Shown: in pieces, positions 1 to 8,077 of the stretch
Numbering within the stretch: position 1 is the stretch's first letter
Layout of the letters: every line of letters begins with the position of its first letter
Source of the DNA: Prevotella sp. UBA7764
GTDB taxonomy: Bacteria; Bacteroidota; Bacteroidia; Bacteroidales; Bacteroidaceae
Assembly (NCBI GenBank): GCA_002481295.1
Contig: DLDU01000006.1
Span: forward strand, 1 to 9,433
Reading direction: 5' to 3'
DNA: 9,433 nt
The notes under the pieces: generated by a model
What the model was told of the DNA's origin: nothing
The model's input: only the letters and a program-made list of their open reading frames with translations
Databases searched by the model: none
Position numbers and translations under genes: made by a program

Positions 1-86
1 GGATTGTCGTCCTCACTGTTGCAGCAGGTAATCACACAGGCGCCGCATATAATTACAAGGATGGCGGCGAGCATCCATAATTTCAT
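1..86 (-). CDS. Lipoprotein, N-terminal fragment (runs off the left edge)
   Basis: Only the first 28 codons are inside the window. They encode a lipoprotein signal peptide: MK, a hydrophobic core LWMLAAILVIICGA, then VITC with the probable lipid-carrying cysteine at residue 21. The following residues, CNSEDDN, are acidic, as in Bacteroidetes lipoproteins exported to the cell surface. The mature domain is not visible, so no function can be given. The DNA of the first ten codons is nearly identical (27 of 29 bases) to the start of the TonB receptor gene at 8077. The present start codon (84-86) directly abuts the end of the IS110 element. I infer that the original start lay three codons further upstream and was cut off by the insertion: it survives at 1695-1697. 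The gene keeps an ATG, but its natural upstream region now lies beyond the element. Confidence 0.75.
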   Translation of the reverse strand, partial: MKLWMLAAILVIICGACVITCCNSEDDN

Positions 87-190
87 TCGAAAATGATTTA
101 TTGTGAACACCCGATAATTCGGGCATTCGGGTTTAACTTATTTGATTTGACACAACAAAAGAATTAGCAGACTGCGGATGCCGTCTGCGG

Positions 191-335
191 CTATCGGAAG
201 GCTTTTATAGTTTTAAAACGACTGGAAAGTAGGAAATTTCATTCGAGTGCTCTTAGCAACAATCTTTGCCTCTCAGTCGTTTAGGCCAGTTTCATTTTCA
301 GGCTTGGAGTCCCAGTAATAGTCGGCCTTAGGGTT
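191..335 (-). ncRNA. Candidate IS110/IS1111 bridge RNA (seekRNA)
   Basis: This is the non-coding region just downstream of the transposase stop, on the same strand. Read on the minus strand it has two successive stems. Stem 1 pairs AGGCC (328-324) with GGCCT (287-283). Stem 2 pairs AAACGACTG (282-274) with CAGTCGTTT (224-216), a perfect 9 bp, followed after a bulge by AAAG (267-264) with CTTT (229-226). The stem 1 loop contains AAATGAAAC (297-289), identical to the xpt-side junction at 1690-1682. The stem 2 loop contains TCGAATGAAATT (246-235), identical to the lipoprotein-side junction at 90-79. Just after stem 2, AAAAGCCTTC (206-197) is the exact reverse complement of DNA 8-17 nt inside the xpt-side end (1675-1666). 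Two guide-bearing loops are the published architecture of IS110 bridge RNAs. The RNA ends are guesses, and no experiment or covariance model supports it here. Confidence 0.55.
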
Positions 336-344
336 CGTGCGCCT

Positions 345-665
345 CTATGCGCTTTCTTTACCGGGCGAATCCTCTCCGGTGAGTTTCTTTATCTGGTCCT
401 GATAATACTTGATTTGTGCCTGTTTACGCTTGTCGTCCATGTAGTCAGGTCCAAGCTCCTGATATGCAGTGCCGTCCTTGATCATATGATAGATGACCTT
501 GAGCATTTCCGCTGCGATTGCCACCAGCGCGCGTTTCTTTCCCCGTCTTGCAGCAAGTCTCTTGTAGCGTTCCGAGAAGTAGGTACCCTTTGTTCTTGTT
601 GCACACCACGCACATTCTGTCATTATGGCCTTTGTTGCCTTGTTTCCGTGGTTGGTGTGTGAACT
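345..665 (-). CDS. IS110 transposase, C-terminal part in the shifted frame
   Basis: This open frame continues the transposase after the A9 run. From about 664 downwards it reads SSHTNHGNKATKAIM, then TECAWCATRTKGTY, RLAARRGKKRALVAIA and DGTAYQELGPDYMD, which are the usual last blocks of IS110-family proteins. It ends at a TAG (347-345). Taken with the upstream frame and a one-base shift, the total is 418 residues, reasonable for a Bacteroidales IS110 transposase. The first ATG in this frame is at 623, but a protein starting there would have no catalytic residues, so separate translation is unlikely to be useful. Either a recoded fusion makes the whole transposase, or this is the orphaned end of a pseudogene. 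Confidence 0.7.
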   Translation of the reverse strand, partial: SSHTNHGNKATKAIMTECAWCATRTKGTYFSERYKRLAARRGKKRALVAIAAEMLKVIYHMIKDGTAYQELGPDYMDDKRKQAQIKYYQDQIKKLTGEDSPGKESA

Positions 666-1600
666 TTTTTTTTACCTGCGCTCTCGTTGTTGCCAGGGGC
701 CAGACCAGCCCACGAGGTAAGATGCTCTTCGGTAGGGAACACTTCCATGTCAACCCCTATCTCGGCAAGAAGTTCCTTGACCGAAGAGTTTTGCATGCCA
801 GGCACTTCACAGAGTTGTTCTATACGTCCCTGCAAGGGCTTCATCCGCCGGTCTATCTCCTTGTCGAGGACTTCTATCTCGTCCTCGATGTTCCTGATAC
901 TCTTGCGGATTGCCCTAATCATGAACTTGTGATGTTCAGTGAAGTGCCCTTCAACGGCCTCGGCGATTTCCTCCTGCGAGTGCTTAAGTCGCGGATGCGT
1001 ACATAGTTCTGCAAGTTTCTGAGGGTCGGTCTCACCGTTTATAACCTCGTCTATCACAGCTGTGCATGTCTTGCCGCGTACGTTGCTGAACACGCTTGAC
1101 AACTTAAGGTTGGCATCCTCGAAGATGCGTATCATTCGGTTGTGCTCTGCAGCCCGTTGCTGCACGAGCTTACGGCGGTAGCGTGTCAGGTCACGGAGAT
1201 CACGCTGGTCACGCCTGGGGATAAAACTCCCTTTAAGCAGACCGGCGCGCAAGAGCTTACATATCCATGCAGAGTCTTTCTTGTCAGTCTTGTGACCTGG
1301 GACATACTTGATGTGGCGTGCGTTCACCACCATGATGGTGAAACCGCCAGGTTCAAGGATGTTCATCACCGGCTTCCAGTAAACTCCGGTGCTCTCCATT
1401 GCTACATGGGTAACACCAAGTTCCAATAGCCATTCTTTCAATTGTGTCAAAGATCTCGTTGTCGACTGGAACGTACGTGTCTCTTTCTTGATGTTCGTCC
1501 CACTGACTGTTGCCACAATCTCCTTCTTGTGAACGTCAAGACCGCATCCGCGAGCTACGACTTCTTCGAAGGATACTTCGTTCTTCTGTTGTTTCGCCAT
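623..1600 (-). CDS. IS110-family transposase, N-terminal and catalytic part (frame ends early)
   Basis: IS110 transposases are RNA-guided DNA recombinases with a RuvC-like DEDD domain and a C-terminal domain bearing a catalytic serine. The RuvC-like set is visible as D22 (GLDVHKKEI), E69 (VAMESTGVYW), and D106/D109 (GHKTDKKDS). A helical, probably coiled-coil stretch lies at about 210-262. The C-terminal Transposase_20 block starts near CEVPGMQ (264-270), and the likely catalytic serine is S307 in LAPGNNESAGKKK. Three codons after GKKK would normally begin a conserved tail, but here the frame runs into 13 unrelated residues and stops (325 aa). The conserved tail is present in another frame directly downstream. 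Start: the ATG at 1600-1598 lies about 35 nt after a TATCTTTG promoter element; no Shine-Dalgarno sequence is seen. Confidence 0.85.
   Translation of the reverse strand: MAKQQKNEVSFEEVVARGCGLDVHKKEIVATVSGTNIKKETRTFQSTTRSLTQLKEWLLELGVTHVAMESTGVYWKPVMNILEPGGFTIMVVNARHIKYVPGHKTDKKDSAWICKLLRAGLLKGSFIPRRDQRDLRDLTRYRRKLVQQRAAEHNRMIRIFEDANLKLSSVFSNVRGKTCTAVIDEVINGETDPQKLAELCTHPRLKHSQEEIAEAVEGHFTEHHKFMIRAIRKSIRNIEDEIEVLDKEIDRRMKPLQGRIEQLCEVPGMQNSSVKELLAEIGVDMEVFPTEEHLTSWAGLAPGNNESAGKKKVHTPTTETRQQRP
665..673 (-). other. Run of nine A residues at the frame break in the transposase
   Basis: The coding strand reads GGT followed by nine A residues and GTT. In the upstream frame this is G-K-K-K-V. The conserved IS110 tail (SSHTNHGNKATK...) needs AGT in place of GTT, which requires one extra A or a ribosomal slip back by one base. 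The phase A-AAA-AAA fits a -1 slippery heptamer, and runs of nine A residues are also prone to transcriptional slippage. Simple mutation or a homopolymer sequencing error would look the same. Confidence 0.6.
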
Positions 1601-1633
1601 AGTTGTAAAGGGTTGAAGTTACTGTATCTGTGG

Positions 1634-1641
1634 CAAAGATA
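1634..1641 (-). promoter_or_regulatory. Candidate -7 element of the transposase promoter
   Basis: The minus strand reads TATCTTTG, an exact fit to the Bacteroidetes -7 consensus TAnnTTTG, ending 33 nt before the transposase ATG. No clear TTTG -33 element lies at the usual spacing, so the assignment rests on the -7 match and its position. Confidence 0.4.
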
Positions 1642-1682
1642 CGAAAATTTTCATTCCCTTTGGCGAAAAGCCTTCATGTACG

Positions 1683-1697
1683 TTTCATTTGATTCAT
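1683..1697 (-). pseudogene. Displaced first five codons of the gene interrupted by the IS110 element
   Basis: Eight bases after the xpt stop the minus strand reads ATG AAT CAA ATG AAA and then enters the insertion sequence. Joined to the DNA at 80 and below (TTA TGG ATG CTC), it gives MNQMKLWMLAA, in frame and nearly identical to MKQMKLWMHAA at the start of the receptor gene at 8077. This is the best evidence for the insertion point. It also implies that the interrupted lipoprotein gene once followed xpt directly and probably shared its transcript. Confidence 0.6.
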
Positions 1698-5674: not shown

Positions 5675-8077
5675 TTAGAAGTCGAGACGATAGAAGATGT
5701 TAGGCAGTGAGATACCTGCCTTGTCGGTACGGATCTCACCAGTGGCGAGGTCGTAGCGCTGCCATTGCGGAGCCTCAGCATCGAGGATGTTCAGACCCTC
5801 GAAGGCGATGGTGTGGCTCACCTTGCGGCGGTTGATTTTGTAGCTCACAGTCAGGTCGACAACGCTCGTCGGCTTGAAGCGCTTAGAGAATGCCTCATTC
5901 TCCTTATAGATAGGATCATCATTGATGATACCGGCTGCTACGTTGGCACGCATGGCCTCCACATCGATAGGTGTGTAGCGCAAACCGCCCTGAATAGAGT
6001 ACTTAGCGCTGACATTAAGCACGTTCTTACCAATCATCCACTCCTTACCACCCAGGATCTTGAACATGAAGCCACGGTCGTAGAGCTGGTTGCGCCATAC
6101 CTTGTCAACGCCTCTGTACTGTGATTTATAGAGCGAGAAGTTGGTTTGGCCAAAGAAGCCGTGACTCATATAGTGCTCCAGCGTGATGTCTCCACCGTAG
6201 TTACGGGTGTTGCCCTTATTCACAAGCGGTTCATCGGTGTAAGCATAGAAGCGGTTGGTGACGCAGTAGGTGCTACCATTGATACCCACAGGCGTGTCGA
6301 AACCATACTGGTAGAACATGTTCAGACGCAGGTTGAGGTTGTCTGTGAACTTATGGGAGTAGGAAAACTGCAGGTGGTGGGCCTTGCTCAGACCGAGGTC
6401 TTTGTTCACCAGTCGGCCAGTTTCATCGCGATAGAAATAGGTGTCGAGTTTCTCAACCATTGAGTGCAGACCGTAGCCCAGTGAGAAGCTGCCACCGTTG
6501 TAGGGCTGCCACTTCATGCTGGCGCGTGGCTCAACAGAAACATCATCTGAGAGTACGAAGTAGTTGGCTGCTACACCCAGCGACATACTGAACTTATCGC
6601 TCAGTGTGAGGAGGTTCTGCCAGAAAGCGCTGGCGAGACCCGTGTCGTCCTTCATATCGGTGTAGGTCTTCATCGTTGAGGGGTCGGCATAGAGATAATC
6701 CACGCTGCTGTATTTCAAGTCGAAGAAACGGTGGGAGTATTCGGCACCGAACTGTGTGAGCCATTTTCCTGTTATCTGCTTCGACAGTTCTGTATTGAAG
6801 AGCAGACGGTCTTCATTTTGCTTCTGCTTGCTGAAGAGGTATTGCGTCTCAGGCTCCTCAAAAGCCAGCGGGGTCTTCAGTACTCCATTGGCATCGCGTT
6901 CCAAACCATAGTATAGATTATCTACACCGATATGTTGCATATTGTAAGCCGCTGTGGTGTTCCACGACCACTTGTTACCCAGGTGAATCTTGTGTGAGAT
7001 ACCAGCCAGCAACTGTGTCATATCACCATTGAAATTAGAGGCATCGTAAGCCGAGTGCACATCCTTCAAATCGATACGGTCGGTATGTGTCTTGTCCAAT
7101 AGTGCCAGTCCAAAGATAGAGAATGTTCCAGCTTTCTTAGTGGGCAGGTTCAGTTTCCATGAGAAGTCCTGGAAGTTGAGTTGGTCGCCTTCGGTATCAA
7201 CGAGCCCCAGCTGACTGATGAGCGCAGTGAAGCCATAGCGGTAGTTCACGATATAGCTGGCATTGCTCTTCTTCGAGAGCGGACCTTCTAATGTCAGTTC
7301 CTCGAATGCCGAACCCAGCTGTAGGATGTTTTCGTGTTTGGAGTTGTTACCCGGTCGCATCTTTACGTCGAACACACCACTCAGCGCATTTGAGTAGTTG
7401 GCATTGAAGGTGGAGGTGAAGAAGTCGGAGTTGCCTATAACGTTAGAGTTCAGTCCGCTAATCAGTCCGTAGCCGGCATTCCACATGTCATTGTAGTGGT
7501 TAGGTGTAAACACCTCCACACCCTCTATGCGATACTGCATACGCTCCGGAGCATTGCCATGAATGGAGAGACCACTACCATCAGCTTCACCCGACACACC
7601 AGCGAAGGCCATCACCAATCGGGCAGGGTCGTTGGCACCACCCGCAAAACGGCTGGCTTCCTCCATAGAGAGCATCACTCCACCAGTCAGTACGGCAGGA
7701 TTGACTGTTGACTCCTTGTTCACACGGGGGCGCACCACCACTTCCTTCAGTTCGGTACTGTTCTCACGCAAAGCGATGTCCAAGACCACCTCCTTGACGC
7801 CGGAAATCAGTATTTCCTTCATCATACTCGGTTCGTAGCCGATGTAGGTCGATTCGATGGTGTAACGTCCACCCTGACTGATATTAATCAGATAGTTACC
7901 ATCGATATCGGTCACAGCAGCTGCTCCCTGAAGCTCTACAACCCTCACCGTAGCGCCAATCAGCGGTTCGCCAGTGATAGCGTCTTTCACGGTGCCGCGC
8001 AGGGTCTCAGCCTGCATGCTTACAGTGCCGCAGATGATCAGGATGGCGGCGTGCATCCATAGTTTCATTTGTTTCAT
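5675..8077 (-). CDS. TonB-dependent outer-membrane receptor
   Basis: The 800-residue product imports an unknown ligand across the outer membrane using energy passed on by TonB-ExbB-ExbD. The signal peptide MKQMKLWMHAAILIICG...MQA is probably cut after A23. Residues about 24-105 form a carboxypeptidase-regulatory-like domain (LRGTVKDAITGEPLIGATV, TDIDGNYLI, YIGYEP). The plug follows at about 125-245, with MSMEEASRFAG..DPARLVMAFAGV, LSIHGNAPERMQYRIEGVEV and a hydrophobic stretch ending in SGVFDVKMRPGN. The rest is a beta-barrel ending in the aromatic residue F (FYRLDF), as expected for barrel assembly. The length and the absence of a SusD-like partner argue against a SusC starch-type receptor. 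No substrate is evident. It starts 13 nt after the upstream HAD-M15 gene and is almost certainly on the same transcript. Confidence 0.9.
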   Translation of the reverse strand: MKQMKLWMHAAILIICGTVSMQAETLRGTVKDAITGEPLIGATVRVVELQGAAAVTDIDGNYLINISQGGRYTIESTYIGYEPSMMKEILISGVKEVVLDIALRENSTELKEVVVRPRVNKESTVNPAVLTGGVMLSMEEASRFAGGANDPARLVMAFAGVSGEADGSGLSIHGNAPERMQYRIEGVEVFTPNHYNDMWNAGYGLISGLNSNVIGNSDFFTSTFNANYSNALSGVFDVKMRPGNNSKHENILQLGSAFEELTLEGPLSKKSNASYIVNYRYGFTALISQLGLVDTEGDQLNFQDFSWKLNLPTKKAGTFSIFGLALLDKTHTDRIDLKDVHSAYDASNFNGDMTQLLAGISHKIHLGNKWSWNTTAAYNMQHIGVDNLYYGLERDANGVLKTPLAFEEPETQYLFSKQKQNEDRLLFNTELSKQITGKWLTQFGAEYSHRFFDLKYSSVDYLYADPSTMKTYTDMKDDTGLASAFWQNLLTLSDKFSMSLGVAANYFVLSDDVSVEPRASMKWQPYNGGSFSLGYGLHSMVEKLDTYFYRDETGRLVNKDLGLSKAHHLQFSYSHKFTDNLNLRLNMFYQYGFDTPVGINGSTYCVTNRFYAYTDEPLVNKGNTRNYGGDITLEHYMSHGFFGQTNFSLYKSQYRGVDKVWRNQLYDRGFMFKILGGKEWMIGKNVLNVSAKYSIQGGLRYTPIDVEAMRANVAAGIINDDPIYKENEAFSKRFKPTSVVDLTVSYKINRRKVSHTIAFEGLNILDAEAPQWQRYDLATGEIRTDKAGISLPNIFYRLDF
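8040..8068 (-). repeat. LWM-type signal-peptide repeat (copies also at 58-86 and 4682-4710)
   Basis: These 29 bases encode MKLWMHAAIL in the receptor gene. The copy at 58-86 matches at 27 of 29 bases and encodes MKLWMLAAIL; the copy at 4682-4710 matches less well (the start codon is lost). The proteins that follow are unrelated, so the similarity is confined to the signal peptide. Confidence 0.75.

Follow-up and report, generated by a model that had tools for sequence, protein, structure and literature searches.

A very likely bridge RNA in the tail of a Prevotella IS110-family element, with loops that follow the target and the element's right end

Comparison among relatives makes it very likely that the non-coding tail of an IS110-family element from Prevotella sp. 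UBA7764 encodes a bridge (seek) RNA, with loop 1 as the guide for the target and loop 2 as the guide for the donor. The element lies in the window, by which we mean the whole stretch of 9,433 nt of DNA that was analysed. An initial annotation had proposed a candidate bridge RNA in this tail, and that proposal is now supported by covariation in the stems and by loops that track the junctions of each element.

The element, its ends and its host site

The window holds a single IS110-family element, on the minus strand, with xpt on one side and a lipoprotein gene on the other (Table 1). It is the sole full copy found in its genome. The ends were fixed with relatives. In genome G645, five identical 1,644-bp copies stand at different sites, and their common part runs from AATGAAAC to TTTTCGTATGAAA. 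Similarly, an element of Hallella multisaccharivorax (L033), with a transposase 98% identical to the window's, has nearly the same ends at another site. The five G645 copies and three identical copies in G649 all lie within AATGAAA, in constant orientation relative to the motif. These copies display the site- and orientation-specific insertion of the IS110 family, with a shared core alone at both ends.

What did the element insert into? The window's flanks, when joined, read MNQMKLWMLAAILVIICG, which resembles the start of an uninterrupted gene at 8077 (minus strand, same window), MKQMKLWMHAAILII. Hence, judging from this resemblance, the xpt-side and lipoprotein-side flanks very likely belong to a single gene. 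A search of relatives for an intact xpt neighbourhood gave four strong matches, with no such lipoprotein start within 200 bases behind three of them. Near-identical signal sequences also begin other genes of the window's genome (L002, G000:C38 end; window 1-79; 8077), and the window's contig may end here for that reason. A search of viral contigs, by transposase and by two loop patterns, gave no match.

Only 82 bases separate the left core from the start of the transposase, and the non-coding tail spans 87-344. Of the 21 distinct left ends, 10 carry a TAnnTTTG-like element, against 0.54 expected from mononucleotide shuffling; this motif is the -7 box of Bacteroidales promoters. Two arrangements among the relatives stand apart. 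First, in G233:C92 two different full elements (L036/L029) occur in tandem, one copy inside the other's left junction; the target guide of the outer element, TAT, fits the outer flank when the inner copy is discounted by eye. Second, a derivative in Hallella multisaccharivorax (L042) is missing most of the transposase and has kept the RNA region and right end; its site is the ATGAAA start of a long ORF.

By its domain matches, the transposase belongs to the IS110 family. Pfam reports PF01548 and PF02371 (E 5.7e-32 and 4.5e-11), NCBIfam NF033542, “IS110 family RNA-guided transposase”, scores 206.9 bits against a cut-off of 140, and a relative (L044) matches IS621 in PDB (E 7.7e-08). The C-terminal part at 345..623 gave no Pfam match by itself. 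The reading frame changes just behind an NNESAGKKK motif, where nine A stand in a row (plus strand T665-673); the same run follows this motif in nine distinct elements (the window, L033, L004, L007, L008, L029, L045, L066 and L099) and also in L063. Five others (L005, L039, L058, L072 and L080) have eight-A runs, while L010, L011, L044 and L068 are without an A run and have an intact frame; in the remaining rows, a search for the NNESAGKKK motif gave no match. The nine-A run could be a site of programmed slippage. Since its transposase frame is broken, the window copy may not be active alone.

Table 1. Features of the element and its candidate RNA, in window coordinates
Feature	Position	Strand	Basis or remark
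IS110-family element, including both flanking ATGAAA core copies	81..1688	-	boundaries from relatives' copies at differing sites
Left core ATGAAA	1683..1688	-	preceded by target flank ...ATCAA; element's first base after the core is C
TATCTTTG, TAnnTTTG-like promoter element in left end	1634..1641	-	motif search of left ends
Transposase, first 325 aa (DEDD_Tnp_IS110 and start of Transposase_20)	623..1600	-	Pfam, NCBIfam
Transposase C-terminal part, other reading frame, after nine-A run	345..623	-	likeness to L044 and L010 C-termini
Stretch aligned and modelled as candidate bridge/seek RNA	198..355	-	alignment of relatives, model
Loop 1 outer stem, 5' side (partner 284-288)	323..327	-	95.6% of cells paired
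5' strand of loop 1, with many U in the majority of relatives; place expected for a top-strand guide	315..322	-	alignment
Loop 1 inner stem, 5' side (partner 299-301)	312..314	-	100% of cells paired
Loop 1 inner stem, 3' side (partner 312-314)	299..301	-	alignment covariation
Putative target guide, loop 1 3' strand, AAA-ATGAAA-C; last C is the left end's first base, handshake-like	289..298	-	guide scan, table
Loop 1 outer stem, 3' side (partner 323-327)	284..288	-	alignment covariation
Loop 2 outer stem, 5' side (partner 217-226)	272..281	-	both-side changes in 7/10 pairs
Loop 2 inner hairpin, 5' side (partner 249-250), weak	256..257	-	72.9% of cells paired
Loop 2 inner hairpin, 3' side (partner 256-257), weak	249..250	-	alignment
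Putative donor guide, loop 2 3' strand, CGA-ATGAAA; copies the element's right end	237..245	-	guide scan, table
Loop 2 outer stem, 3' side (partner 272-281)	217..226	-	alignment covariation
Right core ATGAAA	81..86	-	preceded by element end ...TTTTCGA; then lipoprotein gene TTATGG

Loop letters follow the junctions of each element

Evidence for guide function comes from the relatives. Junctions were located independently of the loops, with a few ambiguous left ends chosen by distance or by left-end motif. Variable RNA columns were then scanned against flank positions in 27 elements (6,054 tests), with L029b excluded because its left junction contains another, nested copy. Four pairings head the ranking: loop 2 position -1 with right end -1 (27/27 elements, 8.3 expected), loop 1 -1 with left target -1 (24/25, 7.9 expected), loop 2 -2 with right end -2 (26/27, 15.4 expected), and loop 1 +7 with left end +1 (25/25, 13.5 expected). 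An extended table, compiled by hand and enlarged by four elements, covers 29 of the 32 complete distinct RNAs (left out are L030 and L042, both lacking a left junction, and L029b with its nested copy). There, agreement is 29/29 for loop 2 -1, 28/29 for loop 1 -1, 26/29 for loop 2 -2 and 29/29 for loop 1 +7, while swapped controls (loop 1 against the right end, loop 2 against the target) each agree in 11/29, the level of chance. The misses are L070, which contradicts loop 1 -1, and L080, L064 and L101, which contradict loop 2 -2. Neither loop 1 -3 nor loop 2 -3 carries information, and each guide spans no more than about 7-8 letters, of which six hardly vary. The initial annotation had named fixed loops beside differing flanks as grounds for abandoning the idea; the loops are not fixed, and the loop 1 base switches between A, T, G and C with the left flank.

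How much of this agreement is shared ancestry? Clades were set by eye, in agreement with a transposase tree made without L039, and letters were permuted within them. The observed agreement was reached in none of 100,000 permutations for loop 1 -1, in 700 for loop 1 +7, in 1,104 for loop 2 -1 and in 1,312 for loop 1 -2; for loop 2 -2 it was reached in 19,893, which is not significant. The target guide is thus firmly supported by within-clade permutation, and the -2 letter of the donor guide depends on differences between clades. In clades E-G, the left flank often resembles another copy's right end. Within clades A-D alone, loop 1 -1 equals the left flank in 18/18 (mean 8.1; reached by 17 of 200,000).

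The core itself has changed in a few relatives, and here too loop and junction changed together. L104 has AATAGAAAC in loop 1 and the left junction, with GGATGAAA retained in loop 2 and the right end. Conversely, CGTGAAA stands both in loop 2 and at the right end of L064 and L101, whose loop 1 and left junction retain ATGAAA; these two, sisters in the transposase tree, probably record one event. Joint changes are therefore seen in three relatives and two events, and they imply that the guide extends into the core. The letters kept at both junctions would place the crossover within GAAA.

The same letters could be given another meaning: the loops might serve excision by encoding the finished left (loop 1) and right (loop 2) junctions, instead of specifying target and donor for an insertion. 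Loop 1 does read as target flank, core and first left-end base, which is the left junction product, and its +7 letter agrees throughout the extended table. Nevertheless, this one extra base would be explained by handshake pairing of the kind described in PMC11208158. Moreover, loop 2 has no handshake-like letter; the letter after its core equals the right-flank letter at only 13/35 sites, so loop 2 ignores that position and does not reproduce the right junction product. We consider the finished-junction assignment improbable and take loop 1 as the target guide and loop 2 as the donor guide.

Two stems that covary

The structure was examined in 27 distinct relatives, the window included, with L030 excluded because of a degenerate 5' part. 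Both stems covary across these non-coding ends, as the initial annotation had proposed should be checked. Indeed, RNAalifold with no structure supplied recovers stem 1, the loop 1 inner stem and stem 2. Across 20 named pairs, 91.5% of cells hold a standard pair, against 82.2% in shuffles, and compensatory changes on both sides occur in 56 cells, against 15.9 (0/500 shuffles reach either value). Pairs with at least one such change number 10, against 7.1 in shuffles (15/500 reach). When one partner is slid by 1 to 3 columns, pairing falls to 24-45%. The shuffles ignore relatedness, and the slid controls retain it but use a structure drawn from the same rows. In the loop 1 outer stem, for example, U-A becomes C-G on both sides in 12 rows. 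The helices of the initial annotation (328-324/287-283 and 282-274/224-216) are there, with exact positions off by one or two bases. The ten letters between the inner and outer stems of loop 1 read NNN-ATGAAA-Y across the alignment, and loop 2 reads NN-ATGAAA. The recombinase gene is thus adjoined by two structured loops. The single-sequence fold of the window has z = -2.0, and an Rfam scan of the window reported no family at its gathering score. Two more hairpins, on the minus strand and within 98-190, are predicted in the interval that separates loop 2 from the right end. The distance from the loop 2 core to the right end is about 155-173 bases in the window's clade and clades B-C, and 67-78 in most others.

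The loop copies could instead be DNA-level repeats of the recombination site, serving as spare crossover or protein-binding sites, with hairpins forming in single-stranded DNA. Consistent with this, ATGAAA is common to the loops and both junctions as DNA, and relatives have mini-elements with ends but no middle. Two stem pairs, however, are G-T in 27/27 rows (G-U or U-G as RNA) and others alternate between G-C and G-U, which speaks for transposase-strand RNA rather than a hairpin in DNA; furthermore, an internal DNA site would have no reason to track the target flank as loop 1 does. DNA repeats are therefore a very unlikely account, and a bridge RNA the far better one.

The matches within the window

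The observation that first drew attention to the tail was a pair of exact matches. The exact cores (minus strand) lie at 295-290 in loop 1 and 242-237 in loop 2, and at 1688-1683 and 86-81 in the left and right junctions. Loop 1 does carry the xpt-side junction sequence, since AAATGAAAC occurs both there and at the left junction. The 12-mer TCGAATGAAATT, claimed for loop 2 and the lipoprotein-side junction, is present as well, but its last two bases, TT, fall within the flank and look like a chance match because close relatives keep TT in the loop despite other flanks. Both matches have the core ATGAAA in common. The 12-base match was rightly called improbable, with 0/3,000 dinucleotide shuffles of the tail (345-105) reaching it, whereas the 9-base left-junction match was reached in 81/3,000. 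The right-junction match alone is beyond chance, the left-junction match only weakly so, and the window alone would not settle the guide question; the relatives do. It is scarcely credible that chance in an AT-rich tail with ATGAAA words, together with common ancestry of loops and ends, explains the pattern: ATGAAA is indeed common, the left 9-mer recurs in shuffles, the elements are related rather than independent and loop 2 -2 is unremarkable within clades, but no within-clade permutation reproduces loop 1 -1, swapped controls stay at chance and core letters switch jointly.

The initial annotation had also expected a target loop and a donor loop with guides to both; guides of both kinds were tracked, but no complementary top-strand guides, with which a canonical bridge RNA is equipped as well, were found. 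Specifically, no convincing top-strand (right) guide, RTG or RDG, was seen in the 5' strands of both loops in the 6,054-test scan, and the best such column (z 3.9) was set aside as a clade-level signal. The loop 1 5' strand is U-rich and varies little among relatives. An A stands at +1 of the right flank at 25/38 sites, against 35% in the control. This A-rich flank could reflect pairing with the U-rich strand, although start codons may be A-rich anyway.

How might such an RNA work? The 198-355 stretch would be transcribed and bound by the transposase. The guiding strands would be those identical to the top strand, pairing with the bottom strand. For loop 1, whose 3' strand is identical to the top strand, the partner would be the bottom strand at the left side of the target and its core (N-ATGAAA); for the loop 2 3' strand it would be the bottom strand at the right end of the element itself, core included (NN-ATGAAA). 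The RNA would thereby bring the two DNAs together, and the transposase would swap strands inside the common core. Once the strands had been exchanged, the last loop 1 base would pair with the left end in the manner of a handshake.

Comparison with known systems

The candidate RNA resembles the IS621 bridge RNA of the IS110 group (Durrant et al. 2024, PMC11208160; Hiraizumi et al. 2024, PMC11208158) in several respects. The recombinase is of the same family, there are two stem-loops, the first for the target and the second for the donor, with the core in both, and an internal loop lies between an outer stem and an inner hairpin. The handshake-like base, which matches the non-cognate DNA, is also reminiscent of IS621, where handshake guides pair with partner DNA after exchange (PMC11208158). 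There are differences as well: the RNA is downstream of the transposase here and upstream in IS621, the loop has its bottom-strand match on the 3' rather than the 5' side, the column scan found no right (top-strand) guides, and the core of target and donor is ATGAAA rather than CT.

IS1111 seekRNAs, represented by ISEc11 (Siddiquee et al. 2024, PMC11187229), share the downstream position of the non-coding RNA and the bottom-strand match on the 3' side. The short ISEc11 target GTGAAAATACTG contains TGAAA too, and natural redirection between relatives is described there as well. In addition, the end letters here, 7 (ATGAAAY) and 3 (CNN), agree with the 7/3 count of the terminal extensions in IS1111. 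Unlike in IS1111, exact subterminal inverted repeats of 11-13 bp were not found: the longest is 6 bp in the window and 5-8 bp in 12 relatives, 11 of them not above shuffles, and the 8-bp match of L099 was reached by 3/200 shuffles. Also unlike the seekRNAs, no top-strand match 5' of the bottom-strand match was found in the scan, and the donor loop covaries with the right end, which the accessible parts of PMC11187229 do not describe. The donor-binding nucleotides of IS1111 members were predicted by inspection in Durrant et al. 2024 (PMC11208160). For start-codon targeting, IS900 of Mycobacterium avium subsp. paratuberculosis, also of the IS110 family, is a precedent by title: Doran et al. 1997, listed among the references of PMC8141618, is reported to describe it as targeting signals for translation initiation.

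The IS110 group sensu stricto has its RNA upstream of the recombinase; here the non-coding region is downstream, as in IS1111. Its RNA is downstream, and the exact subterminal repeats by which IS1111 is defined were not found, so the element fits neither group cleanly. It is very likely a variant bridge-RNA system with a downstream RNA, no exact subterminal inverted repeats, and bottom-strand guides the only ones found. The literature on IS110 elements, covered by titles and abstract openings with preprints and most subscription journals outside, contained no description of this clade.

Start codons as possible targets

Does the six-letter core reflect a preference for start codons? In all, 38 right flanks were collected, and 27 sites were judged with both sides; three right flanks were too short (the window, L067 and L068) and eight sites had no usable left flank. 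Under a strict rule, the 27 comprise 13 start codons, 10 other places and four that are open upstream (narrowly so for L007, L066 and L100). The 13/27 compares with 80/546 control ATGAAA (Fisher p 7.0e-5), where the control is 400 kb of one genome, G645, and the sites come from many genomes. This excess could also stem from selection against gene-breaking insertions. A strict need for start codons was rejected: the G645 copies divide into two at starts, four elsewhere, one open upstream and one unjudged. Since ATGAAA is rebuilt at the right junction, the downstream frame retains a start. Thus, because ATG-AAA is a common start (Met-Lys), insertions often split a gene from its old 5' side and yet rebuild its start.

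Arrays of mini-elements

A strict pattern of right end, ATGAAA and left end was run on 21 chosen genomes, and 70 stretches around 83 places were inspected. The pattern occurs in six of the 21, at 20 places in G1092, 18 in G1078, 23 in G961, four in G945, 17 in G1529 and one in G1419; it is absent from the other 15, the window's genome included, and a reversed control pattern had no match in the 21. Four genomes (G1092, G1078, G961 and G1529) have head-to-tail units without a transposase, up to five in a row. Unit spacing is 135-136 in G1078, 127-139 in G1092, 87-92 in G961 and mostly 88-117 in G1529. In G945 the places do not amount to a clear array, and G1419 may hold a single unit. The mini-element loci are L141-L210, from these six genomes, together with L063, L068 and L099. 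Of the array ends, 37 were judged, and 25 of these lead into 50 or more open codons, against 37/209 control ATGAAA from the same loci. The 17 ends with a known left side divide into eight start-like, five open upstream and four other, against 21/209 start-like in the control.

The shared ends suggest that the bridge RNA moves the mini-element units. There is also a broader reading, which we place somewhat short of probable: the clade may be an RNA-guided installer of movable 5' leaders at start codons. Full elements, and mini-elements of 90-140 bp in trans, would insert at N-ATGAAA with the start rebuilt, and the right-end/ATGAAA junction would again be a target, giving head-to-tail arrays of up to five before host genes.

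Implications

What does the finding mean for this family of elements? First, the relatives amount to a natural experiment on the two halves of a bridge RNA: individual letters of the guides, and three times letters of the core, have changed along with the DNA they match. Second, they provide covariation support for a donor loop in elements with a downstream RNA, where the earlier basis, in the accessible part of PMC11208160, was prediction by inspection. Third, they raise the question of whether the six-letter core, which spells Met-Lys, has been retained because the host gene is spared by an insertion at that place. Fourth, the mini-element arrays at start codons may be mobilised by the RNA in trans.
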